Virus record (IMG/VR): IMGVR_UViG_3300022538_000288
Coordinates: 1 to 44,061 of that record
Strand: one strand, 5' to 3'
Length of the DNA stretch: 44,061 nucleotides
Origin: a virus
The position numbers were made by a program, and so were the translations under genes. The notes beneath the pieces are model-generated. The model worked only from the letters and a program-made list of their open reading frames with translations, did not search any database and was not told the DNA's origin. Positions 2,648-32,978 of the stretch are shown piece by piece; the stretch's first letter is position 1; each line of letters starts with the position of its first letter.

Positions 2648-3229
2648 ATGAAATCAGCCGCTTTTTTGTCCATTTTAATCCTTGCCTTGCCCGCTGCCGG
2701 TGTGATTGTAAACATCGAGGCCGATAATTATCCTTTTGAAACCCCTATAAGCGACAGCTTTGAATTTATCACATTACGCGCACCAGCCTATGCAGGTTTC
2801 GGGGGAGAGGTGGTTGCCGTCCAGTCAACTCATACTATGCAGCTTCTGGGCGAGAAAGTCCTGGGCTACTCCTGGGACAACGAGTTCTGGGGTAACAGTG
2901 TAAGGTTTCGAATTAGCTTCGATGGTTTCGCCAAAAGTTTAAGTGTCAAGATGATTGGCAAAGAAGGTTCTTTGAAGGGCGTAACTGTCTTGGACGCTTA
3001 CAATGCAAATCACGAGTTAATCATTTCTGTCAATAAAAAAGCTCAACCCGGAATTGTAACCTTTCGGAGTACCGAGCGCGAAACCTACGACATAGCTTAT
3101 TATGAGCTATACAGCGAGCGAGCCATTGCCTTTGACGATATAACGATTGACTACCAACCTGTCCCAGAGCCGGCGACAATCCTGTTGCTAACTCTTATGA
3201 TGGTTTGCTTGCGGCGTTTACATATCTAA
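2648..3229 (+). CDS. Exported PEP-CTERM protein (phage-encoded)
   Basis: A 193-residue protein with an N-terminal Sec signal (MKSAAFLSILILALPAAG). The middle (20-170) is rich in beta-strand-like stretches and resembles the beta-sandwich bodies common in this class. It ends with the sorting tail PVPEPATILLLTLMMVCLRR: the VPEP motif, a hydrophobic helix and a basic end. In hosts with exosortase this tail anchors or sorts proteins to the envelope or extracellular polysaccharide. No exosortase is present in the phage, so the host's would be used. It has its own promoter and stands apart from the leftward operons, the hallmark of a moron gene expressed in the lysogen. A lysogenic-conversion or superinfection-exclusion role is inference. 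Confidence 0.85.
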   Translation: MKSAAFLSILILALPAAGVIVNIEADNYPFETPISDSFEFITLRAPAYAGFGGEVVAVQSTHTMQLLGEKVLGYSWDNEFWGNSVRFRISFDGFAKSLSVKMIGKEGSLKGVTVLDAYNANHELIISVNKKAQPGIVTFRSTERETYDIAYYELYSERAIAFDDITIDYQPVPEPATILLLTLMMVCLRRLHI

Positions 3230-9335: not shown

Positions 9336-10177
9336 TCCTCAATTCTGTATTTTTTGCCGTTGCGTGTTACCTTCCATACACCATTTTCCAAAAAGGCATC
9401 GGGATATTCGGGGTAAGGAGATTGCTCTTGGCCTGCTTGAGCGCTCACGCTCGGAGCTTGTTCTTGACCGAAAGCAGAAGGTTCAGCGAATTTCTGGAAT
9501 CTCTCTCCGGCCTCAGTTTGGTATCTTTCGAGCCAGATTTTATCAAATTGTCGAGTTGCACGTTTTGCTGATGTTTTGTATTGCTTTGTTGCCTGTTTTA
9601 TGTAAGCTCTTTTCGCGGCGTGGTACGCCTTACTGCCGTAAATCCTGTCGTACCAAGTGCGTTTTTCCTTTGGTTGGCCTTCTATCACTTTGTCAAAAAG
9701 TTCGTTGTGTTCCGGCCCGATTACCTCTGGGAAATCCTTTTGTCGTATCTGCATCAATTCATTGTGCAGATTATCAAGGTCTCGCTGGATATTGGCTTGT
9801 AATCCTTCGTCTCCCAATTTTTCTGCTTTTGTAACTCCTGTCATAGCTCGATTGATGTCAGCCATTACATCTTTGCTTGTGCGGACTTTTGGCTGTTGGC
9901 GCTGTGTTGTTAAGGCTCTTGTTGCCTCTGTTCTTGCCCTCAAATTCTCTGCTCGCAGACCTGCCAGCGGGTCCATAAGTTTTCCCGCTAACTGCTGGCC
10001 GAAATCCGTTCTCAATTTCGGCGCTTGACCCTCAAAGCCGCCTCTGGCCCAGTTGCCGATGTCCTGCAAATCGCGTGTTTGTTGTTGTCTCTGCTGCTGT
10101 TCTAATATGCCGCCCAGAAGATTCTGAATAAAACCAACTGTGCCAGCGTATTTATTCGGCTCTTGAACTACTTGCAT
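9332..10177 (-). CDS. Probable internal virion protein (281 aa)
   Basis: Helical and Gln/Arg/Ala-rich throughout (LEQQQRQQQTRD, RAENLRARTEATRALTTQ), with a basic middle region (AKRAYIKQATKQYKTSAKRATRQ). It ends in a short beta-like tail GVWKVTRNGKKYRIEE. There is no signal peptide. Composition and location between two other large virion-type genes suit an ejection or portal-associated component. A GGAG Shine-Dalgarno precedes the ATG by eight bases. The stop overlaps the start of the 1298-residue gene, so the two are coupled. Confidence 0.6.
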   Translation of the reverse strand: MQVVQEPNKYAGTVGFIQNLLGGILEQQQRQQQTRDLQDIGNWARGGFEGQAPKLRTDFGQQLAGKLMDPLAGLRAENLRARTEATRALTTQRQQPKVRTSKDVMADINRAMTGVTKAEKLGDEGLQANIQRDLDNLHNELMQIRQKDFPEVIGPEHNELFDKVIEGQPKEKRTWYDRIYGSKAYHAAKRAYIKQATKQYKTSAKRATRQFDKIWLERYQTEAGERFQKFAEPSAFGQEQAPSVSAQAGQEQSPYPEYPDAFLENGVWKVTRNGKKYRIEE

Positions 10178-10234
10178 CTTGTTAAACTCCTTCTGGTCTC
10201 ACCTTTTTCAAATTTTTTGTAATCCAAATAGCGA

Positions 10235-11362
10235 TTAAGTATACATACCACCCCCTGGCAGTGGCGATGTAAGTCCAGGTACGGTGTTCATACCAGCCCA
10301 CGGTGTGCCACCACCACCTGCAAACCAACCACCTAATCCACCAAGCACATTACCTACACCACCCATCAATGGATTTATTCCACCAGCCCCTACAAAAGCA
10401 CCCAAAGCGGGCATCATTTGACTGCCTAATCCTTGTGCCCCTTGCTCAAGATAAGGCGTCATAGGCGGTTGTCCGAGTGCCGTTCCCAAAAATTGCTGCA
10501 GGTAAGGATTCGCCCAGGGTTGCGCTTGCTGCCATTTTGCGTATTCCCCGCCAAGTTGCTCGCCTGTAATCCCTCTTTGCTGGCCGCCGATGTTCATCAT
10601 TTGACTTAGCATATCCGTACCCATCCCGCCGACTTGACCGGCCTGTTGCAAGACACTTCCCGGCAGGCCGGCAAGCTGCATCGCCTGGCCTACCCCTGCC
10701 TGTTGTCTGCCTTTCTGGGCTTCTGAGCCACCGTATATGTAACTCGCTAACTCGGCTCCTAAGCCAGCAGAGAGCCTCTGACCCCCCCTGGCAAGCTCTC
10801 TGTAGCCTGCACCACCTTCGCCGCCTGAAAAATACTTTTCGGCAATCGCAGGCATTACATCCTGTTTGTAAATATCCATACCGAACTGGCGGGCCGGCTC
10901 GAGCGATTCCATCAGCATTTTCGGGTCGAACGGCTGAAGGACGTTTTGGAGCGTCTGTTCGGCTGTCCCCATAAATCTGCCCGGCGCCCCCGGATCAGCT
11001 TGCCCGAGAATATCACCGAAATACTCCATCCCGCCCGTTGCTATCGGTGTAAGTCCGCCCGCAGCACCAAAGCCCGCCTGCTGTAAAGGTGAAACTCCGG
11101 GAACTGTTTGGCCGGCGTATGGTGTAATACCCTGCCCTATCTGCGGGCCAATCCAGTCGGTAAGTTGCTTGAAAAGGTCCCGGACCCCCGTACCCTCATA
11201 AGGGTCAACGTATTTGACTTCTGTACCGCCGCCGCCCTTATAGCAACAGGTTCGACCCCAGAACGAATAACTATTGAGTTTCGCTTGGAGTTTGTCCGAC
11301 CACTCCGGCGTCAGGCTCGGATTTCTGGCTTGTGCTATCGGATTCATCGTTTGATTCCACAT
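10235..11362 (-). CDS. Gly/Gln-rich virion-associated protein (375 aa)
   Basis: The N-terminal 50 residues are polar (MWNQTMNPIAQARNPSLTPE). The rest is dominated by Gly, Gln, Ala and Met in short repeats (GGLGGWFAGGG, QQAGQVGGMGTDM). A lone Cys-Cys pair and GGGG occur near residue 40. The pattern is typical of flexible internal virion proteins upstream of ejection genes. No enzymatic motif is seen. The start at 11362 has GGAG seven bases upstream and lies inside the previous gene, giving a 92-base overlap in another frame. Confidence 0.6.
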   Translation of the reverse strand: MWNQTMNPIAQARNPSLTPEWSDKLQAKLNSYSFWGRTCCYKGGGGTEVKYVDPYEGTGVRDLFKQLTDWIGPQIGQGITPYAGQTVPGVSPLQQAGFGAAGGLTPIATGGMEYFGDILGQADPGAPGRFMGTAEQTLQNVLQPFDPKMLMESLEPARQFGMDIYKQDVMPAIAEKYFSGGEGGAGYRELARGGQRLSAGLGAELASYIYGGSEAQKGRQQAGVGQAMQLAGLPGSVLQQAGQVGGMGTDMLSQMMNIGGQQRGITGEQLGGEYAKWQQAQPWANPYLQQFLGTALGQPPMTPYLEQGAQGLGSQMMPALGAFVGAGGINPLMGGVGNVLGGLGGWFAGGGGTPWAGMNTVPGLTSPLPGGGMYT

Positions 11363-11789
11363 CTGTTTTCTCCATTCTTATTTCCTTCGACCGCTTCCAA
11401 CCGGCTTTCTCGAAACTCTTTGGGCGGGTTGTTGTCATTACGAGCTTCTTTTTTAACTCGGGTCCGGTCGGCAAATTCAAAAGAAACTCCGCACCCTTTT
11501 CCAAAACATCACCGTTTTTCGATTGGTATTCACGGTCGAGCGATGATAAACGAACGTAAAAACACGCCTCTATCACATCAACCGTAGCCCAGAGAACGCC
11601 CTTGATTTTGTTATCTATTTCCACAAGGACATAAAGTAAGGTCGTGGGGCTTCGTGCAAGCAGGGGGCCAAACTGGTAAATCCGGTCAATAGTATCGGAA
11701 TCAATCCCCTCGACTTGCTCCAACAAATACCTTGGTATCCGTGTGAAGTCGTAGAATCTCATAAAGTGCAAATCACTAAATTCAGGCAA
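11271..11789 (-). CDS. GNAT-like acetyltransferase (172 aa)
   Basis: A hydrophobic strand pair LLYVLVEIDNKIKGVLWATVD leads to a helix and then VMTTTRPKSFEKAGWKRSKEI, which resembles the C-terminal strand-helix of GNAT folds, where the substrate end is typically xxRPxxFxKxGF. The classical acetyl-CoA loop (Q/RxxGxG/A) is not evident. The last 35 residues are disordered and acidic (VESNDESDSTSQKSEPD). The start is a TTG at 11789 with AAAGGA upstream; an ATG at 11762 is an alternative. It overlaps the ATP-grasp gene by eight bases and the next gene by 92. Acyl transfer to a virion or host component is inference. Confidence 0.5.
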   Translation of the reverse strand: MPEFSDLHFMRFYDFTRIPRYLLEQVEGIDSDTIDRIYQFGPLLARSPTTLLYVLVEIDNKIKGVLWATVDVIEACFYVRLSSLDREYQSKNGDVLEKGAEFLLNLPTGPELKKKLVMTTTRPKSFEKAGWKRSKEIRMEKTDVESNDESDSTSQKSEPDAGVVGQTPSETQ

Positions 11790-13092
11790 TTTTTAATCCT
11801 TTTATTCTTTTCTCGGCATCTGCAAGACCGTCTGTCCGATGTTGTAAGTAAGAGCAGACTTTTAGCTTACCAATTGCGTTATAGAGTCGGCCCCAAGCCT
11901 CTGCCAAACTCTTGCCCCTTGCCGTTACTATCCCTAAGATTCCATCGGCGCCGGCGCACTTCAGTTTGCCGACATCGCTGTAAACATCCTGCGCCCAGAA
12001 GAAGGGGTAATCTTTCAGGCCGCCGACAATTGAGACATCCTTTGCGTAGTTGCGGCGCAGAAGCGGTATATCGTAGGGATAGGGCGGTATCGAAATCCTC
12101 TGACTTGCGGCGTAGCCATCGTGAAACTCAACGTCAAAATCCTTCAAAAAGAAATCCGACAGCTTGCCCTTGAGCAAGGTCAAAAGACAGTAAATAGCAT
12201 CATAGCCGAACCTCGGCGTCCATTCCAAAAAGTAGGCTTTACCATCTTTGATAATGCAATTGGCATCACAAGGCCCGATATAGCCTTTCGATTTCAAATA
12301 GTCTGCCATTTTCGTCATCGGGCCGGTGAGCAGACCACGAGTCTTTTTTATCCATATCGTGTTACTCTGGCTGCCTATCGCCGGTCCCAAATTGGCATCC
12401 ATAAGCCTTTTGCTTTCGATAGTGTGGTTAAAGTGTCTCGGGCCTTGCTCGCCAATCCAAACCTCCGTTGAGACTTCGGCGCCGTCAATCTTCTTTTGGA
12501 GGATGTATTCGCATTTATCACTAATGCGGACGAGCCACTCGTCCAGCATCTTAGTTATCAGTTCGCCGGGGAATTTCTCAACGTAGGTCAAATCGAGGTC
12601 CTGGTTGCCCTCCGGCTTGAAAACCCACAGGTCTTTTCTCCTTTGCAGGAACTTGGCACCATCTTTGAGGGTCTTGAACTCGTGAAATTCCGGTATCGCA
12701 AATCCCATTTTCTCGGCCGTTTTAATTCCTCTAACGCGCTTGAGTTCGATTGCTTCGGTTACATTTAAGGCGCCGATAACCTTGTGGTCTTTTCGCAGCT
12801 TTTCGGCTACCGGCCCGAAAACGCTGGGACTGCTGTTCTTTAGCCCGAAGATTTTTAACAAGGTGGCATCCTGCTTGGTCTTTTCGTTCGGGCGGGTAAT
12901 ATCGAAAACGACAATCTCCGCTTTTTTCAGCTCTCTTTTCAAGTCCTTGACCTTTATCTTGGGGACAATACCATCGTAGTTGTGCCTGTACTGCGGGCTG
13001 TGCAGGTAAATCCCAGCATCCACGCCTTCCCGCCGAAGCCGCCAAACAATCGGTAAACTTTCGCCTGAATTACTCATAAAAATAATCTTCAT
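11782..13092 (-). CDS. ATP-grasp ligase, GARS/PurD-like (436 aa)
   Basis: The N-terminal domain MKIIFMSNSGES resembles the glycinamide ribonucleotide synthetase (GARS) N-domain. It is followed by an ATP-grasp core: LWVFKPEGNQDL (about 150), YILQKKIDGAEVSTEVWIG with the conserved E-x-S-x-E-x-W, NHTIESKRLMDANLGPAIG, and YFLEWTPRFGYD at the metal site. The family joins a carboxylate to an amine or thiol with ATP. Real PurD belongs to purine synthesis, but here the gene sits between a fibre and virion genes. Modification or cross-linking of a virion or surface molecule is therefore more likely, though unproven. The start at 13092 is fixed by a TAATG overlap with the fibre gene. Confidence 0.8.
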   Translation of the reverse strand: MKIIFMSNSGESLPIVWRLRREGVDAGIYLHSPQYRHNYDGIVPKIKVKDLKRELKKAEIVVFDITRPNEKTKQDATLLKIFGLKNSSPSVFGPVAEKLRKDHKVIGALNVTEAIELKRVRGIKTAEKMGFAIPEFHEFKTLKDGAKFLQRRKDLWVFKPEGNQDLDLTYVEKFPGELITKMLDEWLVRISDKCEYILQKKIDGAEVSTEVWIGEQGPRHFNHTIESKRLMDANLGPAIGSQSNTIWIKKTRGLLTGPMTKMADYLKSKGYIGPCDANCIIKDGKAYFLEWTPRFGYDAIYCLLTLLKGKLSDFFLKDFDVEFHDGYAASQRISIPPYPYDIPLLRRNYAKDVSIVGGLKDYPFFWAQDVYSDVGKLKCAGADGILGIVTARGKSLAEAWGRLYNAIGKLKVCSYLQHRTDGLADAEKRIKGLKIA

Positions 13093-15752
13093 TAGGGTAT
13101 AGTCGTATATCCTGTAATAAGACCGCTGGTTACTGTTATCGAATTGCAATCGCCGCTACCGCCGCCGAATGTTAAAGTTGCACTGCTTCCTGATACATCG
13201 CCAACAGTATAGGCATCGGCTTCGCAGCTTGTTCCGGCATCTAATGTACCACTAACAAGATTGCCTGAAAAGTAACCGTCTTTCCAGTATATTGGCTGCG
13301 CCCCGCCCCGACCTAAATCTACTGTATCTCCTGCCCCGACAAAACAGGAATTATCGGAGTCTAAGTAAACCTGCACAAGAGTTCCGCTTGCGTTCTCTGC
13401 TTCCAGATATAAATTCGCTCCGTGATTGTAATTGTATAAATGGAAGTCATTAGTACCGGTAGCGAATATCTTGCATTCTTCCAAACTCCCCAATGCAATA
13501 GGTATATTATCATACCCAATAATAATTCCTTTTCCAGCTGACCTTAGCCTACCTGCTCCGTCTATTTGCCATTTAGTAGTAGGTGTGTTGTCAACAACAC
13601 CCGCTCCACCTGTGGTAGCGGTCTGAAAAAGGATTGAGGAAGAACCTATGCCTGTAGAAATACCAGAGGCAATAGTCAGGTTTCCACCTGCTTTATTAGC
13701 TTGTCCTGATGTTGCCCCGCCTGCATTTATTGTCAGTCCAAGACCTTCGTAGGTAGAGGTTGTTCGCCTGCTCACTCCAAGTATTCTTGCAGTATCGCCA
13801 TCAAAAGTTAAGTCTCCAGTTAAAGTAGTCGCACCTGCACCGAGAGTGCTATCAAAAGTAACTGCATCTGAAACGTGTAGTGTTCCTACAACTTCTAATT
13901 TAGCATCGGGGTCAGTAACTCCAATACCGACATTGCCATTACCTAAAATTGTTATACGAGAAGTGCCACTTGTCCCCAGTGCAAGTTTAGCATCTCTTCG
14001 ATTCAAAAAAATAATATCTTCATTGCCAGATGATGAATTTCCAAGATACCAAAGTTGTTGGTCGGGATTGCCACTACCATCTGATTCATAGCCTGTAATT
14101 ACTGCACAGGCATTTACGTCATCAGCAGGATTTTGAATAATTAGTTGCCCTGCGTGGTGTGAACCAACTATTCCAGGAACATTTGCTTTAATATGAAATA
14201 CAGAGTTTGGTGAACTTGTTCCGATGCCGATGTTGCCACTTTCTGTTAAAACTAAAGCATTTACGCCCCCTGCCTCTGTCCCTAAATGCATAAAATCATA
14301 GGTACTGTTCCAACCTATCCCGCTCCAATTACCAGCTCCACTTGAATCACCAATAACAATTCGGGGATTACCACTATCTATTACCCATATATCACCAGCA
14401 ACTTCTAACATAACCCTTGGAGTCGCCGTCCCAATTCCAACCTTATCTGTATATCCGGCAGCATTAACTACAAGGGTAGGAGAGTCTACGACTAAACTAT
14501 CAAGAGTAGTCGCACCCGCAGCTAAAGTGCCGGAAAAAGTCGCATTGCCATTTTTCAAAATTGTTAAGGCGTTTGCCCTGTTGACATCGTCCGCCCCTAT
14601 CCCTATCTCAAATAATGGGTCTGTCGCCTGCCAACTGGTCGCCGCCCCGCCGCCGACATTAAATCTTCCAAAAACAGCAGTGGCATAACTTTCAGCATTT
14701 GTTCCTACGCCTGCTGCCAGACCAAAGCGTCCATACGCATACGTGTCCCAGTTTATCGCAAAGCTGCCTGCCCCTCCGGCCTCTGTATCAAAATTAAATG
14801 CCGCACTTCTGTCGCCACTTGCCCGCGCCCCATCACACGCTGCAAAACTCGAACCTCCATCTGCCATTGTATCGAGGCCAGCTGCAAAACTGTACGTTCC
14901 TATATCAGCAACAGCCCATTCGTCTCCTGTTACTTCTCCAGCCCGAAAAGCACGCTTCGACGGTATCCACATCAAGCGTATACCAGCACCAACGGCAGGA
15001 GTAGTACCTGTTGTGCCATCACTCCAAATAGTGCCATCGCCAGTGGCCTTTAAGACGTTGGCCGTAAGCGTACCTGCCGTAGCAAAACCGCCTGCCGTTA
15101 AAGTTGTCCCATCAAACGTTAAATTGGCATCATCTACCAAAAGCCCTGCGGTTGAAGCGTAAGGAACTCTGCCGGAGGTAAGACCGGAATCTGTGATATT
15201 AGCAAAGGTCGGGCTTGCGGTTGTCTTAACGGATTGGTCGAACCAATCGCCGAGGTCGGCAATTTGAGCCACAAGTTCTGAAAGAGAATCTACTTCAGAA
15301 GTCGCTCCGCCGGATATAGCCACAAGGCCGGTATAGGCACTCACATCGGCTTCCAGGCCCCCTCTTTCGTGGTCTATGGCCGTTGCCTGCCAGGCCCCGG
15401 TAGCTATCGTTCCTAATGCCGTTATGTTCGTTGTGGCAGACCAGCCAACGTCCGTGCCATCGCTTCGCAGGATATAACCCGATGTTCCCAATTCAAGCTC
15501 GGCCCAGTTCGGGTCGGAATTGCCGTAAATCAGAGAGCCTCGCGATACGCTGTTGGCTTCGGCATCCCCGTGAGCGGTAGATAGGATATTATGTCCTTCG
15601 GCGGCAGCGGTATCATCGACATATTGCTTATTGGCCGCATCACAAGGGTCTGTCGGCGTAGCGACATTCTTTATTCGCTGGCCGCCAGCATCGTGGCCGA
15701 AAGCTACACTGCAACACATCAACAAGTAAATTATGACGATTCGAAAGACCAT
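13092..15752 (-). CDS. Tail-fibre-like protein with a Sec signal peptide (886 aa)
   Basis: The N-terminus MVFRIVIIYLLMCCSVAFG is a signal peptide (cleavage after AFG). It is followed by GGQRIKNVATPTDPCDAANK, the usual start of phage tail fibres. The body contains repeated fibre motifs such as GIGTATPRVMLEVAG, GIGTSSPNSVFHIKA and GIGVTDPDAKLEVVG (consensus GIG-T-P-x-x-x-L-x-V), plus LTFDGTTLTA units. The C-terminus is a Gly/Ser/Thr-rich beta region with two Cys. The likely function is host binding. A TTG four codons upstream (15764) is another possible start and adds GNK without removing the signal. The signal peptide on a fibre is unusual. Confidence 0.8.
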   Translation of the reverse strand: MVFRIVIIYLLMCCSVAFGHDAGGQRIKNVATPTDPCDAANKQYVDDTAAAEGHNILSTAHGDAEANSVSRGSLIYGNSDPNWAELELGTSGYILRSDGTDVGWSATTNITALGTIATGAWQATAIDHERGGLEADVSAYTGLVAISGGATSEVDSLSELVAQIADLGDWFDQSVKTTASPTFANITDSGLTSGRVPYASTAGLLVDDANLTFDGTTLTAGGFATAGTLTANVLKATGDGTIWSDGTTGTTPAVGAGIRLMWIPSKRAFRAGEVTGDEWAVADIGTYSFAAGLDTMADGGSSFAACDGARASGDRSAAFNFDTEAGGAGSFAINWDTYAYGRFGLAAGVGTNAESYATAVFGRFNVGGGAATSWQATDPLFEIGIGADDVNRANALTILKNGNATFSGTLAAGATTLDSLVVDSPTLVVNAAGYTDKVGIGTATPRVMLEVAGDIWVIDSGNPRIVIGDSSGAGNWSGIGWNSTYDFMHLGTEAGGVNALVLTESGNIGIGTSSPNSVFHIKANVPGIVGSHHAGQLIIQNPADDVNACAVITGYESDGSGNPDQQLWYLGNSSSGNEDIIFLNRRDAKLALGTSGTSRITILGNGNVGIGVTDPDAKLEVVGTLHVSDAVTFDSTLGAGATTLTGDLTFDGDTARILGVSRRTTSTYEGLGLTINAGGATSGQANKAGGNLTIASGISTGIGSSSILFQTATTGGAGVVDNTPTTKWQIDGAGRLRSAGKGIIIGYDNIPIALGSLEECKIFATGTNDFHLYNYNHGANLYLEAENASGTLVQVYLDSDNSCFVGAGDTVDLGRGGAQPIYWKDGYFSGNLVSGTLDAGTSCEADAYTVGDVSGSSATLTFGGGSGDCNSITVTSGLITGYTTIP

Positions 15753-16057
15753 TTTGTTACCCAAGCTCCCGATTCTTTCCTTTGTACTGTTAAGTTGTTT
15801 CCACTAAGATAAAATCGCCAATTACCATCATCACCGACTAAACTGCCCGTTGGTACGAGTTCAGCAATGTCCGGCTTAATTCGATTCAAAAGCCAGTTCA
15901 CCCTCTTGGCTACCTCCGAATAATTACTTTCCGAGTAGATAACCAACTCTTTAAGAAACTTTTTAAGGTCATCGCCATCGACAGATTCCAGAAATCGCTG
16001 AAACTTATCGCTCGGCTTATATACAAGAAAATCCTCTTTCTCCTTGAGTTTCTCCAT
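15731..16057 (-). CDS. Small tail-region protein (108 aa)
   Basis: The helical N-terminal two-thirds (FQRFLESVDGDDLKKFLKEL, KRVNWLLNRIKPDIAEL) is joined to a C-terminal beta module GNWRFYLSGNNLTVQRKESG that ends KWSFES. This terminal module is common in phage tail-fibre connector or hub-adjacent proteins. The start lies directly after the tail-hub stop and the end overlaps the fibre start. No signal peptide is present, in contrast to its neighbour. It may link hub and fibre. Confidence 0.65.
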   Translation of the reverse strand: MEKLKEKEDFLVYKPSDKFQRFLESVDGDDLKKFLKELVIYSESNYSEVAKRVNWLLNRIKPDIAELVPTGSLVGDDGNWRFYLSGNNLTVQRKESGAWVTKWSFESS

Positions 16058-18130
16058 TTAGATAATCCTGCCCGCCGGCTCAAAGTATGGCACAATGGCA
16101 TGTATTCTCGGTCTATTACTTACAGCATTATTTGTGATTTCTATTCGATGAAAATCGCCGACAGCACCACATTCCGCCCGTTTCCAGACTTTATCTCTGC
16201 TCGTGCCGGTTTCCGTACAGGCGATTTCCTTTGTTTGATAAGAGTCTGATTCGGAGTTAAGGTAAAACTTCACATCGAAAGATGCGCCGGAGTCTTTATC
16301 TATCAGAAAATCAATCCATCCCAGTCTTGCCTGTCTGCCCTCCTCAACATAGGGGTTCATTCGGCACATCTTGGCCTGAAATTCGATAGCTTCACCATCG
16401 TCCGCGCCGCTATCATTGAGTACATAAATCTTGCCGTCCTGAGAACCCATAAGTGTAGTCGGATAGCCGGACTGCAGGCTCTTTTCGTCCCAGGACCAGT
16501 CGATGTCCTCCCAGGCATCAGACAGGTCCCAGGTTACATCGGATTCGAGCGCAGAGTATCCCAGAACGTGAATCGGCAAGCTGTAAGTAGAAAAGCTGTT
16601 GTCGTCATAATTGAGTACAATCGCACTATCACAGTATGTATTGCCGTCTGCGTGCGCCGAGGCCTCCGCCGAGGCATAGGAAATCCAGGCTTGTATTTCC
16701 TCATCCAGGACCAAACCGTAGCAATAGGCAACAGAGTCTATATTCCAATCGAGTACGAAATTCGGGATTTTCTCGTCAATCCCGTATGCCTCACGGCCGT
16801 CTGTGCCGATAAGTTTGGTAGGGCCGACCCCGAAAATCTCGTCACTAAAGGCAATCAGCGACATTGTTGCATAGCAACCTTCGACCGCATCTATCCTGTC
16901 CCATCTGAACGGCTCATCAGCATCGCCCGTATAGGCAAATTCCCAGACCGAGCGCTCAAAAACGACGATGAGTTTATTGCCGATAAAGTCGGCCGCTACA
17001 ATCCACTCATCCGTAGGGGCATCCTTATAGCTGGCGTTTTTCCAGGTATTGACATCGAGCACATCGCACCATCTTGCCCTCTGCCGGCAAGTTCCATCGC
17101 CTGTTTCGGTGATGTTAAAGATTACGAGCCGGTTCTTTATGGCGAATATAAGCAAACAGCGCGTAATGTCGTTGTCGGGACCGCCTTCTACATCAAGGTC
17201 GATATGCAGACGGGTCAGATAACTGCCATCGTACTTTTGAATGGGGTCGTTGTTGTTTGTAAAATATGAGACCTCCCGCCAGTTTTCGACCCAGAAGAAG
17301 TTTGTGTTATCGCCGGTAAACTCGTCATCGGTATTAGCGCCATCGGCTATCCCTGCGATATTGGAATGGTCGCCCTGCTCATATAAGACTTCGGTATCCG
17401 CAAAAGTGCCGGTTACAGAGCCACGCTGAAAAATAATCGTCCCCGCAGCGTCATCATCAGCCAAACTACCGGTATCGGATACTACCGCTGCCACCGTCCC
17501 ATAGGCGGTGCCGCCGACATTCTCAACTATTTCATCTGCGGCCGGTGTCCAGTTCTGGCCTGTCGTACCCTTAAATCTCAACTTGTTGTGGGTAAGGTCA
17601 GTAAGGGGTTCCTGAGAGGCCGTTCCTGTGGCATCATCGCTGACCCAAGTATCCGTGATTTTGAAAGCACTGGCACTGACTTTAGTTATGGCATAAGTAC
17701 CATTGTAATTGGTCGTTCCGCTTATCGTTACAATGTCATAGTCATCAAAGCCGTGCGAAGCCGCTGTCACCTGAACCTCACCGCCGCCGGCATCGGCAAA
17801 GGCGGTGATTGTTTTGTTTGTACTGCGCAAGTCCTCGGTTATATATTTATTGACCCGGGCGGCGTCCATCACCATAAGCTGCTCGGTTGCGCCGGAGTAC
17901 CAGTTGAAAATTCCCATCACCGGGTCGGTCTTTAGTGTAGGCGCCTTCGTGGCGGTATTGACGTGGACAATCTGGCCGAAAAGAGAGTAGCCCCTGCGCT
18001 TCTCCAGAACGCCTTTTCGCAGATGACAGTCATGCAGGGTCTCAAAGCCGTCCTTCGGCGAAAGCCAGGGCTCGCGCTCGGTGGTTTTACCGTAACGCAT
18101 ATCGAAAATTGGATAGGGCTTGAAAGCCAT
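16058..18130 (-). CDS. Tail hub/tubular-type structural protein (690 aa)
   Basis: The N-terminus MAFKPYPIFDMRYGKTTERE is followed by CHLRKGVLEKRRGYSLFG. This is the pattern of podovirus tail-hub proteins (T7 gp12-like), where a G-x-x-x-x-R-x-G-Y segment begins a beta-propeller-like body. The body has many beta strands and Trp-rich loops (FFWVENWREVSYFTNNNDPI, WEFAYTGDADEPFRW). It contains an Ig-like insertion near residues 130-190 (VTISGTTNYNGTYAIT). The C-terminus is a beta-sandwich. It builds the DNA-ejection channel. The start at 18130 has a GGAAAAG Shine-Dalgarno. An in-frame ATG at 18193 lacks such support. Confidence 0.75.
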   Translation of the reverse strand: MAFKPYPIFDMRYGKTTEREPWLSPKDGFETLHDCHLRKGVLEKRRGYSLFGQIVHVNTATKAPTLKTDPVMGIFNWYSGATEQLMVMDAARVNKYITEDLRSTNKTITAFADAGGGEVQVTAASHGFDDYDIVTISGTTNYNGTYAITKVSASAFKITDTWVSDDATGTASQEPLTDLTHNKLRFKGTTGQNWTPAADEIVENVGGTAYGTVAAVVSDTGSLADDDAAGTIIFQRGSVTGTFADTEVLYEQGDHSNIAGIADGANTDDEFTGDNTNFFWVENWREVSYFTNNNDPIQKYDGSYLTRLHIDLDVEGGPDNDITRCLLIFAIKNRLVIFNITETGDGTCRQRARWCDVLDVNTWKNASYKDAPTDEWIVAADFIGNKLIVVFERSVWEFAYTGDADEPFRWDRIDAVEGCYATMSLIAFSDEIFGVGPTKLIGTDGREAYGIDEKIPNFVLDWNIDSVAYCYGLVLDEEIQAWISYASAEASAHADGNTYCDSAIVLNYDDNSFSTYSLPIHVLGYSALESDVTWDLSDAWEDIDWSWDEKSLQSGYPTTLMGSQDGKIYVLNDSGADDGEAIEFQAKMCRMNPYVEEGRQARLGWIDFLIDKDSGASFDVKFYLNSESDSYQTKEIACTETGTSRDKVWKRAECGAVGDFHRIEITNNAVSNRPRIHAIVPYFEPAGRII

Positions 18131-18244
18131 TATGCTTTTCCTCTGGAATGCGGAGCTATAATAGGTTTTATTTGTGTTTGTGGCATTTAGCATCCTATCT
18201 TAACTATCAAATTCTACCCCAGACCACATAATCGTTTGCTCTCC

Positions 18245-19018
18245 TTAATAACCCCATACTTGCCAATAAACTCCTGTGCAACCGGTTGCAACGGAAATTA
18301 TTACTGTGGTTTTGCTTAATGATTGAATCTTTGCTTCATAGCGAGTAGCAGTATCGTCTTCCATTGAAGTTGCCGAAGCAGAAACAACATCATTAGGAAA
18401 AGCAGTACCAAAAGTTACTGTCTGAGAACCAACTCCTGCTTTATATCCTTGTTTGAATATCAAACCACCCGCGAAGGTATGACTTTCACCACCACTGTAT
18501 GCAGGGTCTGCACCTGCTGTTATCTGGTCATCTACATATTTCTTATTGGCTACTTCGTAATTGGCGTCAGGGGCGGCACTCGGAGTGGACGGAAATTGGT
18601 CGAAAACGAAGTCATCTTCAATTTTAGCCGCCGTTACCTGATTATCAGCAATGTGGGCGGTATCTATTGAGCCGTCAACATACTGGTCGCTGTCAATAGA
18701 ATCATCCGCCATCTTGGCAAGTGTTATATTGGCATCAGCTATCTTTGCCGTTGTCACATTAGCATCGGCTATTTTAATGGTAGTTACGGCACTATCAGCA
18801 ATGTAAGCAGTTACACAAAAATTTGCATCGTGAGTGCCATCGGTCGGAAAGTTGTGTTCTTCGCCAAGAGCCGTTTCTAAGGCCGCCCAGTTCGCTAAAA
18901 TCTCTGGATTAGATGACCGAAGCGATGTGCTCGCAGCGGGTTTGTCTTTGTCCCAGGCACCTATAAACCAAGGCGACCAAGCAATCAGAATTATCAAAAT
19001 AAAAGTTGTTCTTTTCAT
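18245..19018 (-). CDS. Fibre-like protein with a signal peptide (257 aa)
   Basis: A signal peptide MKRTTFILIILIAWSPWFIGA leads to DKDKPAASTSLRSSNPEILA and NWAALETAL, a start frequent in phage tail fibres. A short tandem repeat follows: VTTIKIADANVTTAKIADAN, ITLAKMADDS, STAHIADNQVTAAKI (a trimeric coil-like module). The C-terminal part (YSGGESHTFAGGLIFKQ to the end) is a compact beta domain with QTVTFGTAFPNDVV, as in C-terminal adhesion tips. One Cys pair may form a disulfide after export (ATGCTGVYW). No signal peptide is expected for a cytosolically assembled fibre. Confidence 0.75.
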   Translation of the reverse strand: MKRTTFILIILIAWSPWFIGAWDKDKPAASTSLRSSNPEILANWAALETALGEEHNFPTDGTHDANFCVTAYIADSAVTTIKIADANVTTAKIADANITLAKMADDSIDSDQYVDGSIDTAHIADNQVTAAKIEDDFVFDQFPSTPSAAPDANYEVANKKYVDDQITAGADPAYSGGESHTFAGGLIFKQGYKAGVGSQTVTFGTAFPNDVVSASATSMEDDTATRYEAKIQSLSKTTVIISVATGCTGVYWQVWGY

Positions 19019-19028
19019 TTTAGAACCC

Positions 19029-19610
19029 CTAAAAGCCGGTAATCTCTAATACCGCAGCGTTCGTTATTGTGGTTGGGCAGATACCGATTTTCTTCGAGCC
19101 GCAAATATCCACCGCCCATTCGGCGATATAATTTCCTGTCGGACTCATAGTTGAGGCGGTTTTGTGCCAATTTGCATTGCTTTCGACAAGAGTGTCAGCA
19201 TATTCGTGGCCGCTCGTGGTCGCCGTCTGTCCCCCCGTAGTGAAAGTCAAGGTCGCCACGCGGTTGTAGTGGTCATTATCCCCGTTCATCAGAAATACAT
19301 CGAAAACAGAAGTGTCTCCATCAGTCGTTGAGCTGCACCGAATCCTTACGACATTCCACTTGGTATCAATGCCGTAAGATACATTATTGGCATCGCTGCT
19401 GAGAAAAAGGGCGGCGGTCCGGTTTGTTGACGTTGGTGTGGTCGCACTTGCGGTAAAAGCGGTCTGCGACTGCCACTCATCCTGCAAGGTATGAACTTGC
19501 CCCGGCTCGACCTTTGAACCTGCCTTGTTAAGGGTGTAGATTCCTTCATACCCAAAACATACAGCGACAAAGACCAACATAGCCAAAATCAGAATTGCTT
19601 TATTTTTCAT
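19029..19610 (-). CDS. Secreted beta-rich protein of the tail region (193 aa)
   Basis: A signal peptide MKNKAILILAMLVFVAVCFG is followed by YEGIYTLNKAGSKVEPGQ. The remainder is Thr/Ser-rich and beta-predicted (WNVVRIRCSSTTDGDTSVFD, VATLTFTTGGQ, VLEITGF). Two Cys occur in the mature part, in ICGSKKIGICPTT. I do not recognise the fold. The start at 19610 has AAGGA six bases upstream; an in-frame start at 19667 would bury the signal peptide. The repetition of signal-bearing products in neighbouring genes suggests one functional set. Confidence 0.7.
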   Translation of the reverse strand: MKNKAILILAMLVFVAVCFGYEGIYTLNKAGSKVEPGQVHTLQDEWQSQTAFTASATTPTSTNRTAALFLSSDANNVSYGIDTKWNVVRIRCSSTTDGDTSVFDVFLMNGDNDHYNRVATLTFTTGGQTATTSGHEYADTLVESNANWHKTASTMSPTGNYIAEWAVDICGSKKIGICPTTITNAAVLEITGF

Positions 19611-19623
19611 TTTGATTCCTTTC

Positions 19624-21150
19624 TTATTTTTTACGGTGCAAAATGATATATTCCTTGCCACCGCCATACCTGCTACGCAAACTCCTTATTTCATCAAAAT
19701 ACGTCTTTTTGCGTATGTTTATATGTCCCCCTGTAAACCAGTGTGTTCCAGCGGTGGGCAAAACACCCCCAGTTAAAACATCCACATTAATCCTATGAAT
19801 TAACTTTTGATTATTACCTCCATCAAATATCGTTTCTGAAGGGCCTGAACTGCTTGACATAATTACACAATCTGTATTATCAAGGTATATTTCAGCGAAA
19901 CTTGCGCCACTTGCACTTATCACTTGTGAAGCTGTTGACATTGTAGTTTCGGTATCATCGGGGGGGAAAACTACAAATCCCGAGGCCGTGCTGCTAATTG
20001 GTACTAATGGACAAATTAACGTTTCTACATTTGCATCATTCGTCCAATTTAGATGTACCGTTATTCCAATACCATTTGAAGTGATAGTCGTGCCGATAAT
20101 CAGATTTAATATATCATTCACATCATTACCATCACCATCACTGCTCCAATCGGCATTAGCATCAACTACCATATAAATTTCACTATCTTGATGCAGTTCA
20201 CCTAAAGCAACATTAGCTGTATCATCCATCGTTCCTTGCGAGGTGTCATTTATATATAAAGTGGGATTAGTATTTAGAGCTAATCCAGTACCATCATTAG
20301 GCCAATGAGGTTTGCCATAAGTAGTCCATTGAAAATCCGCTTCTCCTATTGGCTTCCAAGCTATAGCTTGCTCAATTTCTGAAACATAAAAAATAGTTTT
20401 TGCTCCCTCCCCTGCGATAACAGTGTGCGTCCACGGAATGTAATTACCTGCTGTTTGAAGAACATCAACAATATCGTGTCCCATTGCAAGACCATCACCT
20501 GCCAAAACAGTATTAGGGTCGCCATTCCCATCTGTATCAAAAGAATGTATGCCCCATATTTCGCAAGAACTGGAAGTACGGTTAGTAATTCTAAGTATTC
20601 TATCAACCGATGTGCTTGTAGTTGCGACCGCAATTTCATATACCATTGTACCGTAAGAAGAAAAATCCAGATTCGTAATATCAAGTTCACCGTTCAATGA
20701 ATTTGGGTCTCCGCTAACGCCTAAATCAACATCAACATCATCAGCACGGGTTGAAACCGCTAAAAAAATTAGATGGATTCTATTGTGCCCGTTTGGGATT
20801 TCCCATTCCAAGTACTCATCCTGTGAATTTATTGCGCCCCCATTCCAACCTGAATATGAAAAAGAACTGGAACCGCTATGACCTGCTTTTCGGGAATAAT
20901 CTTGCCACTTCGCTGGCCGTACAATCCCAAAATGTGCTTCCTCCATTGGATAACACTTCTTCGCTTCTGCTGAAGTATAAGGCCAAGTAAATGCCTGACG
21001 CCAATAATACTCTCCATCATCATCCGCTGGAATATAAGCCCAGTACAAACCCTCATAGAAGATATCTCGTACTATAACTGGCTGTATTGTTTTGGCTTGG
21101 CTAATAGGATTAAAGAACAAAATTAGAAGCAAAAACAGTATCTTTTTCAT
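19624..21150 (-). CDS. Large secreted protein of unknown function (508 aa)
   Basis: A signal peptide MKKILFLLLILFFNPISQAK is followed by a domain rich in Trp and Tyr (YEGLYWAYIPADDDGEYYWR). After that comes a beta-sandwich-like stretch EYLEWEIPNGHNRIHLIFLA with RVDVDLGVSG-like strands. The remainder alternates strands with Asp/Asn-rich loops (DANADWSSDGDGNDVND), which may bind calcium. The C-terminal 80 residues include GAGFVVFPP-like and THWFTGGH strands. No catalytic motif is identified. The start is fixed by GAGG eight bases upstream, overlapping the connector stop. It may be a receptor-binding, depolymerase-scaffold or surface protein. Confidence 0.65.
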   Translation of the reverse strand: MKKILFLLLILFFNPISQAKTIQPVIVRDIFYEGLYWAYIPADDDGEYYWRQAFTWPYTSAEAKKCYPMEEAHFGIVRPAKWQDYSRKAGHSGSSSFSYSGWNGGAINSQDEYLEWEIPNGHNRIHLIFLAVSTRADDVDVDLGVSGDPNSLNGELDITNLDFSSYGTMVYEIAVATTSTSVDRILRITNRTSSSCEIWGIHSFDTDGNGDPNTVLAGDGLAMGHDIVDVLQTAGNYIPWTHTVIAGEGAKTIFYVSEIEQAIAWKPIGEADFQWTTYGKPHWPNDGTGLALNTNPTLYINDTSQGTMDDTANVALGELHQDSEIYMVVDANADWSSDGDGNDVNDILNLIIGTTITSNGIGITVHLNWTNDANVETLICPLVPISSTASGFVVFPPDDTETTMSTASQVISASGASFAEIYLDNTDCVIMSSSSGPSETIFDGGNNQKLIHRINVDVLTGGVLPTAGTHWFTGGHINIRKKTYFDEIRSLRSRYGGGKEYIILHRKK

Positions 21151-21151
21151 A

Positions 21152-22180
21152 TCAGAACCTCGGACTTGTGCGTTGGTTTACACTTTTTTGTCTTATGTCT
21201 TTTCTGCCGATTAAGGTTTTAAGATGCTCATAGACCGGTCCTGCCTTTGCCAAACGCTCATCATCAGCCTTTTCTTCCAGAATCAAAATCGCGGCGCCGT
21301 AGGCAATTAGCCGTCCCCATTCCGGCAGTAAAACGGCGGTATCGCCTGATAAGGCGGTGGGCTTTTCTATCGTCCGGGCCTTGAACTCGAAGATGTCATT
21401 TGCCTTGGGGCGAAGGTGGAGGACCTCGCCGCTCAACAGGGCCGCTTCCGGCCTGTTTCTTGAACTGTTAAAGTGGTCGGTAAAGGTTTTTGTGACCCCG
21501 GAGGCGTCCAGTCCGGTCGTTCCGGGTACAAAGCCGCCCGAGTCCGTACTCATTGCCGTTACATAGCCCATACAGGCGTTGCTTGAGCTCTCGTTAGATA
21601 GACCCTCAACCGCCTTGGCGGCGGTATCGTAGCCGGTGGCGTTGCCGCCAGCCTCTACAATCGAAATCGTGCCGTCTGAGTCGATTTCAAGCCGCCAGGC
21701 ACCGTATTTGTTCTGTGGAATGGTATCGCCGGAAAGTGCGGTCTCTGCGGTAGCCTTGGGGTAGGAATAGTTCTGGGTTCGATACGAAAAGGCACTACTG
21801 GCAACGGCGGCCTTACTCGATGAGCCAATTGCCAAACCCGGGTCGGTTATGGAGTAGGCGCTGCCGGTATCCTTCGGGTAAAGGTCAAAAAACTTCTTTG
21901 TGTCCTGATACAGCGTTATATTTGAGCCGTTTATTGTTACCGGCTCTTTGAGCTTCAGGACGGTATCTGCTACATCGTACTCGCCGTCATCATCGACAGA
22001 GGTAGCCTGCGTGAGCCAGTCTTTTAATTTCTCCGGCTCACACTCAAGGGGAAAAGTATTCTGGTAGTAGTCGTTTATCTCATTGTCAATATCGTCATTC
22101 GATTTCTGCGAGGTACTTAACAGGCCGGTTATAGTCCGGACTTTCGTCCGTATATCGGATAAGTTCCAAGTTAAGGCCAT
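21152..22180 (-). CDS. Head-tail connector/adaptor protein (342 aa)
   Basis: The N-terminal region MALTWNLSDIRTKVRTITGL with the helical NDDIDNEINDYYQNTFPLE is the adaptor pattern seen in podoviral connector proteins that close the portal. Residues 60-250 are variable and beta-rich (YSITDPGLAIGSSSKAAV). The C-terminal helices (LPEWGRLIAYGAAILILEEK, YEHLKTLIGRKDIRQ) resemble those of gp4/gp6 head-completion proteins. There is no signal peptide. It lies directly before the signal-bearing genes and after a terminator that ends the 901-residue gene. The GAGG Shine-Dalgarno is five bases from the ATG. Confidence 0.7.
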   Translation of the reverse strand: MALTWNLSDIRTKVRTITGLLSTSQKSNDDIDNEINDYYQNTFPLECEPEKLKDWLTQATSVDDDGEYDVADTVLKLKEPVTINGSNITLYQDTKKFFDLYPKDTGSAYSITDPGLAIGSSSKAAVASSAFSYRTQNYSYPKATAETALSGDTIPQNKYGAWRLEIDSDGTISIVEAGGNATGYDTAAKAVEGLSNESSSNACMGYVTAMSTDSGGFVPGTTGLDASGVTKTFTDHFNSSRNRPEAALLSGEVLHLRPKANDIFEFKARTIEKPTALSGDTAVLLPEWGRLIAYGAAILILEEKADDERLAKAGPVYEHLKTLIGRKDIRQKSVNQRTSPRF

Positions 22181-22202
22181 TTTTCTGCCTCATAATCATC
22201 TC

Positions 22203-22234
22203 AAAAAAGGGGCGAGCGGTTAAACCCGCCCCTT
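22203..22234 (-). terminator. Terminator after the 901-residue gene
   Basis: AAGGGGCG (22207-22214) and CGCCCCTT (22227-22234) form an eight-base stem. On the minus strand it is followed by six T. It lies between the 901-residue secreted gene and the connector, so it would shut down or reduce flow from the head genes into the tail genes. The connector and tail genes may need their own promoter or read-through. Confidence 0.75.
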
Positions 22235-22252
22235 AAAATTTTTATTACGGCA

Positions 22253-24958
22253 TTACGTCAGTTCTGTTGTTCTTGATACTTCGTACCAGTGTGAACCGTT
22301 ACTAATAAAAGTAATCACCATATATCTTGCCGCAGTGGTTCCACAAGTTACCGTTCCCGCAGAGGAAACCAATGTGGCGTGGAATGTAATTACTTCGTCG
22401 GCAGTACCTGCAGTAGTAAATACAATAGTTATCACATCACCAGCCGTACCAGCTCCGGAAAAGGTAATTTGCTGGTCTTCATTATCGTTCGGAGTATCTG
22501 TATAAAGATTCGACAAACCAACCGTTAATGTAACCGCTGCGCCTGGAGTAAGCGCTGAAGCCGCAGAAGATAATTGAACCTCTCCCGTCTTATTCGGAAG
22601 AGTAATAGTTCTATCGGCAGTCGGGTCTGTTGGTGTAATAACGGTTTCAAAAGCGTCAGCACCTCCGGTAGCGCCTTCAAATATCAACTGGTTCGTACCG
22701 CCCCAGATAGAATCTGCGGCATCAACATTATTAGTAGCTAAAGTTGAACCGATTAAAGCGCCTGTACTATTCGGTAAAGTTAATGTGATACTACTACCTA
22801 CATCGGCTACCGCCAATATGGTATAAGCAGCATTGGCCGTTGCACCGTCAAAACTCATTGGGGTTGCACCTGCGATTTTGCCGGTGAATGTAGTAATATC
22901 GCCGATAGCATCGCCAAGAGTGGTAGCGGCAGCGGGAAGTGATAAGCCACCGGAACCTGCCGTAACTGTAGTAGTTCCGGTAGATGCGCCGTCTCCGATT
23001 ATAATTGTTTTTGCGCCTGTACCACCAGTTCCGAAATTGATGGCATTGATACCTGTTCCAACGCCAAGATTAACAGTTTTAGCTCCGTTGCCAGTTCCGA
23101 GGTCAAGTTGCATAGCTGCACTGGACTCGCCAAACTTCATAGTTCCGGTTTGTGCAGCATTGCCAATCGTATAGGTAGTCGCAGCGACACCATCAACAGA
23201 AAAATTACCTGTACCGGCCTTAAGAGCGAGAGACGATGCTACACTATCACTACCAATAGTAATAACTTGAGCGGCAGTCCCACCGTCTCCGATATGAATA
23301 GTGTGCGCCCCGACTCCAGTACCCAAACTAAGGTCTGTCATTGTAGCGGTTGATGCACCGATAGTTATTGCCGCCGTCTGTGCCGCATCTCCGATAGTGA
23401 TTGTAGAAGCCGCTACTCCTTGAATGTCAATATCGCCAGTACCGGCTTTAAGATTTAATGCACTTGCACCAGTCTCGTTACCAATAGTAATGACCTGTGC
23501 AACGGCATTTGCGCCAATACCGAATACGCCTGCCGAAGTCATAGTAATTGCGTCTGTGGAAGTAAGACTTAAATCGCCAGTACCGGATTGTACTGTAGTA
23601 CCTGAAGTTGTGTTTGTACTGCCTAAAGTGGTAGCTTTAACACCGCCGCCTGTGGCTATATTTATGGTTTGTGCCGTATTGTCAGTTGCAATGTTCATAG
23701 CGCCCGTGCCGCCGCCGATTGTAACTGCGGCGTTGGTAGCAGCGTTAATGCTCGTAGTGCCCGCTACGGTCAGTCCCGTCAGCCCTGATGCAACACCGGC
23801 TGAAGTAACGTCCCAGGTAGTAGTATTTATCGCAAGGGTGTCCGTGCCAACGCCAATAGCTATTGCAGGAACATCACCGTTTGTAAGTAAGATTGAATTT
23901 TCATAGCTTGTCCCGTCAACATCATAGGCCTGGATAGCCAGTGTTTCCGCCGTAGTGGCACTTGCCCTAATCGCAGAACCGGTCAGAAATGTAAGTCCCG
24001 TAAAACCGGAACCCAAGCCGCCGCTGGTAATGTCCCAGCCCGTAGTATCAATCGCTACAGTACCGGAACCGCCACCAATAGAAGTTGCACCGGAAGAACT
24101 GCCCGTATTGATATTCACCGCATAATTCGAGGCATTGTTAAAAGAAACTATCCCGCCGGTTTGTGTAATGGCACCGGTGTTATTCAACGCTCCCGTATTG
24201 GCAAGAGTGCCGGTATTTGTAATGCCTGTCGCACCCGTAACCACACCTGCGGTAGAAACATTCAATCCGCCACTGCTGACTATACCTAAAGTGCTGGTTG
24301 CAGAACCAAGTGCAATAGCAGGGACAGCTCCGTTTAACCACGACAATACATTCGTATAACTGGCAGTAGCAGTAGTATCCCAAACCTGAATTGCTGACGC
24401 CTGTGCAGTTACTTCACTGCTTTGGAGATATATGCCATTGGCCATTACAATATCGCCTGTTACACTGCCACCACTAAATGAGCCTGCATTGGCAATCCAC
24501 GACAATGCACCCGCACCGTCTGTCCCCAAAACGTAACCATTAGTTCCAATATCAATAGGAAGTGTAAAAACAAGATTACCAGACTGATTACCAGCGGATA
24601 ATGTAGTGTAAAACGTTGCACCTGCACTTTCCATCAGTTTCACAGATGGTAAAGTTGGTATAATAGAACCGAAATCAAAGGTTGTAACGCTTGTATCCGA
24701 TGAAAGTGTTACCGTATTACTGGTGAAGGTGAAAATCAATCCCTCATCGGCTTCGTTCCATTCCATAGCGCCGTTCGTCAAATTGTCGATAGTAAGGCCA
24801 TTGGCGAAGGTGTAGATGTTGCGCTCGTCACCGTGAATGTCTCTAAGAAGCCTGTCCAATCGTTTCGGATTGCTGACGTTGCCATAGTTGATTCTCTGAG
24901 TAGCAAAGGCGGGGATTGCGATGGCTACTATCAAAAGTAGAAAAACTAATTTCTTCAT
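22253..24958 (-). CDS. Secreted repetitive adhesin/fibre-like protein (901 aa)
   Basis: A signal peptide MKKLVFLLLIVAIAIPAFA (cleavage after AFA) is followed by a globular head with NPKRLDRLLRDIHGDERN (30-47). A long beta-solenoid-like body follows, made of short hydrophobic steps of the type ITIGNETGASALNLKAGTGD. Residues 490-534 and 565-610 are near-copies (VITIG then LKAGTG then QGVAA/DGVAA, TIG). The C-terminal 100 residues are a separate beta domain with a Cys pair. It lies between capsid-type genes and the connector, where head-fibre or decoration proteins often sit, and it ends at a strong terminator. The Sec signal makes cytoplasmic head decoration hard to explain. Confidence 0.8.
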   Translation of the reverse strand: MKKLVFLLLIVAIAIPAFATQRINYGNVSNPKRLDRLLRDIHGDERNIYTFANGLTIDNLTNGAMEWNEADEGLIFTFTSNTVTLSSDTSVTTFDFGSIIPTLPSVKLMESAGATFYTTLSAGNQSGNLVFTLPIDIGTNGYVLGTDGAGALSWIANAGSFSGGSVTGDIVMANGIYLQSSEVTAQASAIQVWDTTATASYTNVLSWLNGAVPAIALGSATSTLGIVSSGGLNVSTAGVVTGATGITNTGTLANTGALNNTGAITQTGGIVSFNNASNYAVNINTGSSSGATSIGGGSGTVAIDTTGWDITSGGLGSGFTGLTFLTGSAIRASATTAETLAIQAYDVDGTSYENSILLTNGDVPAIAIGVGTDTLAINTTTWDVTSAGVASGLTGLTVAGTTSINAATNAAVTIGGGTGAMNIATDNTAQTINIATGGGVKATTLGSTNTTSGTTVQSGTGDLSLTSTDAITMTSAGVFGIGANAVAQVITIGNETGASALNLKAGTGDIDIQGVAASTITIGDAAQTAAITIGASTATMTDLSLGTGVGAHTIHIGDGGTAAQVITIGSDSVASSLALKAGTGNFSVDGVAATTYTIGNAAQTGTMKFGESSAAMQLDLGTGNGAKTVNLGVGTGINAINFGTGGTGAKTIIIGDGASTGTTTVTAGSGGLSLPAAATTLGDAIGDITTFTGKIAGATPMSFDGATANAAYTILAVADVGSSITLTLPNSTGALIGSTLATNNVDAADSIWGGTNQLIFEGATGGADAFETVITPTDPTADRTITLPNKTGEVQLSSAASALTPGAAVTLTVGLSNLYTDTPNDNEDQQITFSGAGTAGDVITIVFTTAGTADEVITFHATLVSSAGTVTCGTTAARYMVITFISNGSHWYEVSRTTELT

Positions 24959-32678: not shown

Positions 32679-32978
32679 TCACTTGTTGGGGTTGTTAGGG
32701 TCAACCTTATAAATTACTTTGGGGCCACCAAAAAAAGTAGCGTTACTTATTAAGTCCCCATCCATAATCGCCTTGCTTTCAATCTCTGTGACCCTTCTGT
32801 TGAGCTCATCGGTCGCCCTTGCCAGTATAATCAGGTTGTAGGCCAACCTTGAATCCTCACTATCCCCATACTGTGCGGCCCACTGCTGCGGGTTTGGCTT
32901 AAAAACCGATTGCGTCTTGTTGACCTCGTTGCAGCCAACAATCGCCAGCAACATTACTATGATAATTAACTTTTTCAT
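32679..32978 (-). CDS. Phage lipoprotein (99 aa)
   Basis: A lipoprotein signal MKKLIIIVMLLAIVGC with lipobox (A-I-V-G-C; Cys16 predicted lipidated) is followed by NEVNKTQSVFKPNPQQWAAQ and a helical segment LAYNLIILARATDELNRRVT. The mature part is short and helical. It begins one base after the TerL stop with a GGAG Shine-Dalgarno. An envelope lipoprotein in the packaging module is unusual. It may assist virion exit, lysis or exclusion; there is no sequence evidence for a specific role. Confidence 0.75.
   Translation of the reverse strand: MKKLIIIVMLLAIVGCNEVNKTQSVFKPNPQQWAAQYGDSEDSRLAYNLIILARATDELNRRVTEIESKAIMDGDLISNATFFGGPKVIYKVDPNNPNK

Follow-up and report, generated by a model that had tools for sequence, protein, structure and literature searches.

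The general view is that the virions of tailed phages are completed in the cytoplasm, and a signal peptide is taken as the mark of a non-virion protein of a prophage region. The pIII and pVIII proteins of filamentous phages (Inoviridae) are virion proteins with cleaved Sec signals, but these virions are extruded, non-tailed and membrane-assembled, and their genes are unrelated to those described here. The exported morons Lom and Bor of lambda are phage genes with signal peptides, and Lom, an outer-membrane beta-barrel (PMC12309495), adjoins the tail-fibre genes. Nixviridae prophages of Porphyromonas gingivalis encode signal peptide proteins that use the host general secretory pathway, and these are described as proteins of unknown function, spanins and capsid proteins, with no mention of tail fibres (PMC10367356); phage diversity-generating retroelement (DGR) proteins are said to lack signal peptides (PMC6199706). 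Here we describe a 44,061-base stretch of viral DNA (IMG/VR virus record IMGVR_UViG_3300022538_000288; the window, throughout) in which five proteins of the minus-strand late operon, designated A to E and including tail fibres, carry N-terminal Sec-type signal peptides. Our preferred reading, to which we assign a probability of roughly 45%, is that these appendages would be made late, pass through Sec with removal of the signal, and become part of virions once lysis has mixed the compartments.

A sequence-only reading of the window had assigned Sec signals to five late-module products, and all five reading frames and their signals were borne out by a rule-based caller of our own and by the controls. 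The caller uses n-region charge, h-region hydropathy and the -3/-1 rule, and was calibrated on control regions of E. coli K-12, in which it found 18 of 20 exported proteins and miscalled one of 52 cytosolic proteins. A, B, C, D and E are all called, and each has the basic n-region, 8-18 residue core and small -3/-1 residues of substrates of Sec and signal peptidase I (Table 1). Across the signal set the median core is 16 residues and the median cleavage position is residue 20, with mostly A or V at -3 and A or G at -1. No call was made at 143 internal Met positions within proteins of the window, or on the other late-strand proteins tested, except for a small lipoprotein encoded between the terminase and portal genes. 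In ten control phages, P22, T7, lambda and Pascal among them, four of 281 genes of at least 150 residues were called, which their annotations identify as lambda Lom, a spanin, an endolysin and one minus-strand open reading frame, with no fibres; the five of about 14 long late genes called in the window are far above this rate.

That the signals are an artefact of chance hydrophobic starts or wrong start codons is very improbable. The lack of a Shine-Dalgarno sequence for E and our use of a rule-based caller rather than SignalP speak for it, and some low-hydrophobicity calls are false, as with the MQGVKL starts of the related loci L014 and L016; the caller error rates, the controls, the lack of internal starts and the pattern across the clade bring it close to refuted. 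A, B and D have no in-frame ATG downstream of the hydrophobic core and ahead of the mature domain, so that a product free of the signal is not readily made from these genes; in C and E the sole in-frame ATG sits within the core, without a Shine-Dalgarno sequence in E. Contamination with host DNA was rejected because the relatives hold the same series of virion genes. A lipoprotein reading of the late genes was also rejected, as a lipobox fits only the small lipoprotein, and C has a Cys near its cleavage site and no lipobox. The related locus L002 has a lipoprotein in the same region as that of the window (L002:1481-1777).

Table 1. Positions of the signal-bearing genes and other features (window coordinates unless another record is named; a slash marks the predicted cleavage site)
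Feature	Position	Strand	Remarks
Protein A	22253..24958	-	901 residues; Gly/Thr/Ala-rich repetitive appendage
Signal peptide of A	24902..24958	-	19 codons; AFA/T; MKKLVFLLLIVAIAIPAFA/TQR
Protein B	19624..21150	-	508 residues; slot holds LamG lectins with signal peptides in relatives
Signal peptide of B	21094..21150	-	19 codons; SQA/K; MKKILFLLLILFFNPISQA/KTI
Protein C	19029..19610	-	193 residues; predicted beta-rich
Signal peptide of C	19551..19610	-	20 codons; CFG/Y; MKNKAILILAMLVFVAVCFG/YEG
Protein D	18245..19018	-	257-residue tail fibre; WDK N-terminal domain, IADAN shaft, gp53-like/R-pyocin-like foot
Signal peptide of D	18956..19018	-	21 codons; IGA/WDK; MKRTTFILIILIAWSPWFIGA/WDK
Protein E	13092..15752	-	886-residue fibre; GGQRIKN start, GIGT-P repeats; phrog_9942 tail fibre
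Signal peptide of E	15696..15752	-	19 codons; AFG/H; MVFRIVIIYLLMCCSVAFG/HDA
Head-tail adaptor-like protein	21152..22180	-	no signal; homologues match phrog_10775 tail protein
Tail hub/head-closure (P22 gp10-like) protein	16058..18193	-	no signal in window
108-residue protein	15731..16057	-	no signal in window
Small lipoprotein	32679-32978	-	lipobox IVGC; late operon, between terminase and portal genes
Integrase	1422-2270		
G006 hub	L115:2675-4831 = G006:C1:22675-24831		signal-peptide-like start
G006 108-residue-type gene	G006:C1:24828-26414		signal-peptide-like start

The proteins that carry the signals resemble virion appendages. Fibre content had been proposed for two of them, D and E, and both match PHROG tail fibres. 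D is a real tail fibre, with known-fibre shaft repeats (70% identical to those of the Prochlorococcus phage P-GSP1 fibre) and a receptor-binding foot; its C-terminal domain is gp53-like (Pfam PF21882), and the predicted structure of the foot matches R-pyocin fibres (Foldseek 2.5e-5), the AlphaFold model being poor outside it. R-type pyocin and gp53-like tail fibres are thus similar to D in the C-terminal foot, but unlike D the control and outgroup fibres examined have no signal peptide. The N-terminal domain of A (INYGNVSNPKRLDRLLRD) is common to relatives with and without the signal, and the slots homologous to E carry signals in L002, L003, L005 and L023. No homologue of B was found by pattern search or tblastn, and the fold of C gave no confident PDB match. 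LamG lectins fill the B slot of relatives, whose A-type and other signal genes include beta-helix proteins, all of these bearing signals, and the set is therefore one of receptor- or glycan-binding appendages. These genes lie close against virion genes or overlap them, the start of E overlapping the end of the 108-residue gene, and are therefore probably expressed late. They do not follow the Lom-like moron pattern, as they lie within the late operon and have orthologues without the signal in the same slot.

The strongest evidence is that the same genes occur with and without the signal peptide. For D, at least seven loci have a signal peptide followed by (A)WDK, and about 15 have Met-Ala-WDK or close forms, the homologues in L003, L004, L005 and L012 starting M-A-W-D-K and those in L017, L023, L028 and L031-L033 having close forms. 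The signal is placed exactly at the Met-Ala position of these homologues, with junctions WGA/WDK in L025, FA/AWDN in L035, WA/AWDN in L044, YSA/WDN in L037, CFA/GWDN in L040, FG/AFDR in L122 and LGA/FDK in L134. Because it ends right before (Ala)-Trp-Asp-Lys, the cleaved product would share the N-terminus of the homologues without a signal, and predicted cleavage in L035, L044 and L122 leaves the same Ala-Trp/Phe-Asp N-terminus; the exact coincidence suggests that the signal peptide is removed. In A, the signal is followed by INYRNVSNPRLL-type sequence in the window and in eight distinct relatives (ten loci); diverged homologues with the signal are those in L004, L013-L017, L020 and L023, and the signal is lacking in L031, where the protein starts MADKEIINYESVSNPDLL. 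Homologues of C have the signal in L003, L017, L005 and L025 and lack it in L004, L014, L016 and L020, and both types coexist for its C2 form. The signal peptides diverge faster than the adjoining domains (mean identity 0.40 versus 0.58 for A, and 0.35 versus 0.50 for D) and keep their charge, hydrophobicity and cleavage residues. Close relatives lacking the hydrophobic starts in the same frame had been expected to speak against the signals; such relatives exist for several genes, and we read them as the presence or absence of a real module and not as the mark of a false signal. A capsid tree requires at least three changes in the signal of D, gain and loss not being separable, and alleles have likely been exchanged between lineages.

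The relatives were recovered by IMG/VR scans, with 80 loci from a capsid query and 79 from a hub query. On the hub tree the signal-bearing loci form one supported clade of 13, with one change, and the hubs of the clade are about 40-65% identical to that of the window. Among genes of at least 100 residues at distinct loci, signal peptides were called for 33 of 125 within the clade and 2 of 537 outside it, a contrast whose Fisher value of 1e-23 overstates independence as the loci are related. Signals are likewise found around capsid genes with more than 60% identity and some with about 40%, most of the distant capsid loci having none or scattered weak calls. Within the clade the signal genes are almost all of the appendage types, namely tail fibres, LamG lectins and beta-helices, and the packaging, capsid and adaptor genes have no signals. 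What the sequences hold, then, is a set of functional-looking, conserved and clade-specific signals on bona fide appendage proteins. The modular presence and absence among close relatives could also be explained if the signals were neutral relics left by recombination with secreted host proteins, and sufficient protein avoided export for virions to be built. LamG and beta-helix domains do also occur in bacterial secretomes, but relics would hardly be kept across a diverse clade while their sequences diverge, and A, B and D have no internal start from which a product lacking the signal could be made; we regard this explanation as improbable.

One relative, G006 (IMGVR_UViG_3300028837_001591), has signal-like starts beyond the appendages. 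Its hub begins MKRLIVFLLLCTTVFG/ADYEPYPIYN, where close hubs start MAYKPYPIFD or MRYEPYPVYD, and the following gene, of the 108-residue type, has a similarly signal-peptide-like start (MRKTIIIFLLLTGICRA); these two are the only core tail parts seen with such starts. The claim that the cytosolic neighbours of the signal genes are themselves free of signals therefore holds in the window and not in G006. A GTG just before the mature part of the G006 hub could start a form without the signal, and this is a single case. The presence in G006 of signal-like starts on the hub, the 108-residue-type protein, the fibres and C is what would be expected if the signals were real but uncleaved and anchored the appendages at the inner membrane, where whole tails would be completed. 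The short cores (median 16), the consistent A/V-x-A/G cleavage residues and the coincidence of the signal end with the N-terminus of signal-free homologues all argue against such anchoring, which we consider distinctly unlikely. The sequence-only reading had offered surface proteins, virion completion outside the cytoplasm and membrane anchors as alternatives, and the export that the first two share is strongly supported by the clade-wide conservation and the junctions. The junctions, together with the cores and -3/-1 residues, count against the anchors.

A plausible scheme is as follows. The late operon would yield tail appendages (fibres, LamG lectins and beta-helix spikes) with genuine Sec signal peptides. 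The appendages would leave the cytoplasm via Sec, lose their signals to signal peptidase I, and fold into trimers in the periplasm or on the surface, while the capsid, portal, adaptor and, in most members, the hub would be produced, and the DNA packaged, in the cytoplasm. Lysis would then mix the compartments, and the exported appendages would bind finished particles through the N-terminal domains that relatives without signal peptides use. Given the clade-wide conservation and the exact junctions between signal and mature protein, we strongly infer from these sequences that the appendages are exported and cleaved. That they join the virion at or after lysis we infer from N-terminal domains that are the same as in the forms without a signal and from the lack of a signal-free duplicate of D; the attachment-like N-terminal domain of D, conserved in exported and non-exported forms, points to a shared binding partner. 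P22 tailspikes can be added in vitro to completed heads, which makes such joining feasible. The broader proposal, that this clade of tailed phages completes its virions outside the cytoplasm, with fibres, lectins and in G006 even the hub being exported by Sec, processed and fitted to DNA-filled heads, either in the periplasm or once lysis has occurred, is put forward tentatively.

Several observations weigh against late export followed by joining of the virion. The clade is known from sequence alone, and the N-terminal domains could serve oligomerisation rather than virion binding. A given appendage lacks the signal peptide in some clade members, which means that export is not obligatory at the level of the single gene, and the signal-like start of the G006 hub would be hard to square with cytoplasmic sealing of DNA-filled heads. 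No cysteine signature of periplasmic folding was found (1.11% versus 0.84%, with counts that were not more even), and the idea that export serves disulfide use was accordingly dropped.

The main rival places the exported proteins outside the virion altogether: with domains derived from fibres, they would be released or displayed late in infection, either masking receptors (against superinfection, or the loss of progeny to debris) or binding or degrading host glycans. Their domains are of receptor- or glycan-binding types, exported surface proteins are known from phages (lambda Lom and the P. gingivalis phage signal peptide proteins, PMC10367356), and the clade also has envelope-directed PEP-CTERM and lipoprotein genes. 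However, each signal gene fills a slot that in signal-free relatives is taken by the same protein, N-terminal domain included; a second, signal-free copy of D able to serve as the virion fibre is absent from the window; and placement in the late operon leaves little time for exclusion functions. We regard a purely secreted role as somewhat less likely than late export with subsequent joining of the virion.

Some indications of the host are available. The window gene at 2648-3229 (plus strand) has an N-terminal hydrophobic signal and a C-terminal PEP-CTERM-like motif that is below cut-off, with a similar gene at L107:3343-3978, and a 31.7% identical homologue in the related genome G003 passes the Pfam and NCBIfam cut-offs for PEP-CTERM. 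A phage-encoded exosortase substrate would be unusual, and these genes suggest a diderm host with an exosortase, perhaps of the planctomycete-verrucomicrobial group. L028 (4364-5707) has what we take to be a planctomycete-like dockerin motif, for which Pfam found no match there. A genome scan for relatives gave two contigs of metagenome-assembled genomes, one of which is phage-only and placed in a Desulfobacterales bin, with a composition nearer to the window than to its own bin. No exosortase was found in that bin, and a search across its phylum gave only distant further matches, with no signal peptide genes in the two short stretches checked.

The window is that of a P22-like podovirus. Its portal, major capsid protein and terminase are of the podovirus type (phrog_156, 4e-64; phrog_1357, 1e-40; phrog_2, 3e-23), and as in Lederbergvirus P22-type podoviruses the terminase, portal, scaffold-like protein, major capsid protein, adaptor and hub are followed by ejection-type genes. 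The capsid-to-ejection interval holds A, the adaptor-like protein, B, C, D, the hub, the 108-residue protein and E, in that order. P22 differs in that its appendages, like the fibres of its relatives among the control phages, are without signal peptides, whereas the window has five with them; the 20 N-terminal residues of P22 gp7 are, according to its record, removed by a host protease, and are not a signal peptide. By profile the adaptor-like protein weakly matches a protein annotated as a head completion adaptor. The hub, which likely starts at 18130 (MAFKPYPIF), matches by profile the annotated phage stabilization protein of MW202512 (2e-16), and its homologues match the phrog_3287 virion structural protein, which identifies it as a P22 gp10-type part; no direct match to P22 gp10 itself was obtained. 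No isolate relative was found at the level of the hub, terminase matches being distant, and no Rfam family or tRNA was matched.

Other genes in these phages are also of interest. A 436-residue enzyme-like protein (11782-13092, minus strand), 64-73% identical in G003, G004 and G006, has by eye what we take to be ATP-grasp-like motifs, and no Pfam, NCBIfam or PHROG match. The 218-residue gene after the window capsid gene is present as a tandem triplication in L013 (1609-3648) and L015 (7012-9035). In L004 the late operon has an insertion between A and the adaptor (9290-10816), which codes for a multi-transmembrane protein that is O-antigen polymerase/ligase-like by eye. A protein that appears lysozyme-like by eye (43378-43980, minus strand) has an N-terminal membrane segment, and is a possible signal-anchor endolysin.

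The earlier suggestion that any form of export here would be new was too broad, as lambda Lom is already exported and encoded in the fibre region. Lom is a single gene for a beta-barrel and is not a fibre, unlike the signal-bearing fibres described here, and what looks new is that true fibres are exported, and that this marks a clade. In the literature we found no account of a clade characterised by signal peptides on its tail fibres, which is weak evidence as coverage of subscription papers was incomplete. A clade with signals on real fibres would break the rule that a signal peptide denotes a non-virion protein, and would affect the annotation of host-range proteins in metagenomic phages. 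The clade offers natural pairs of the same fibre with and without the signal peptide for experiments. If the proposal is true, virion assembly would be split between two compartments, and the clade would serve as a natural test case for virion completion after lysis.

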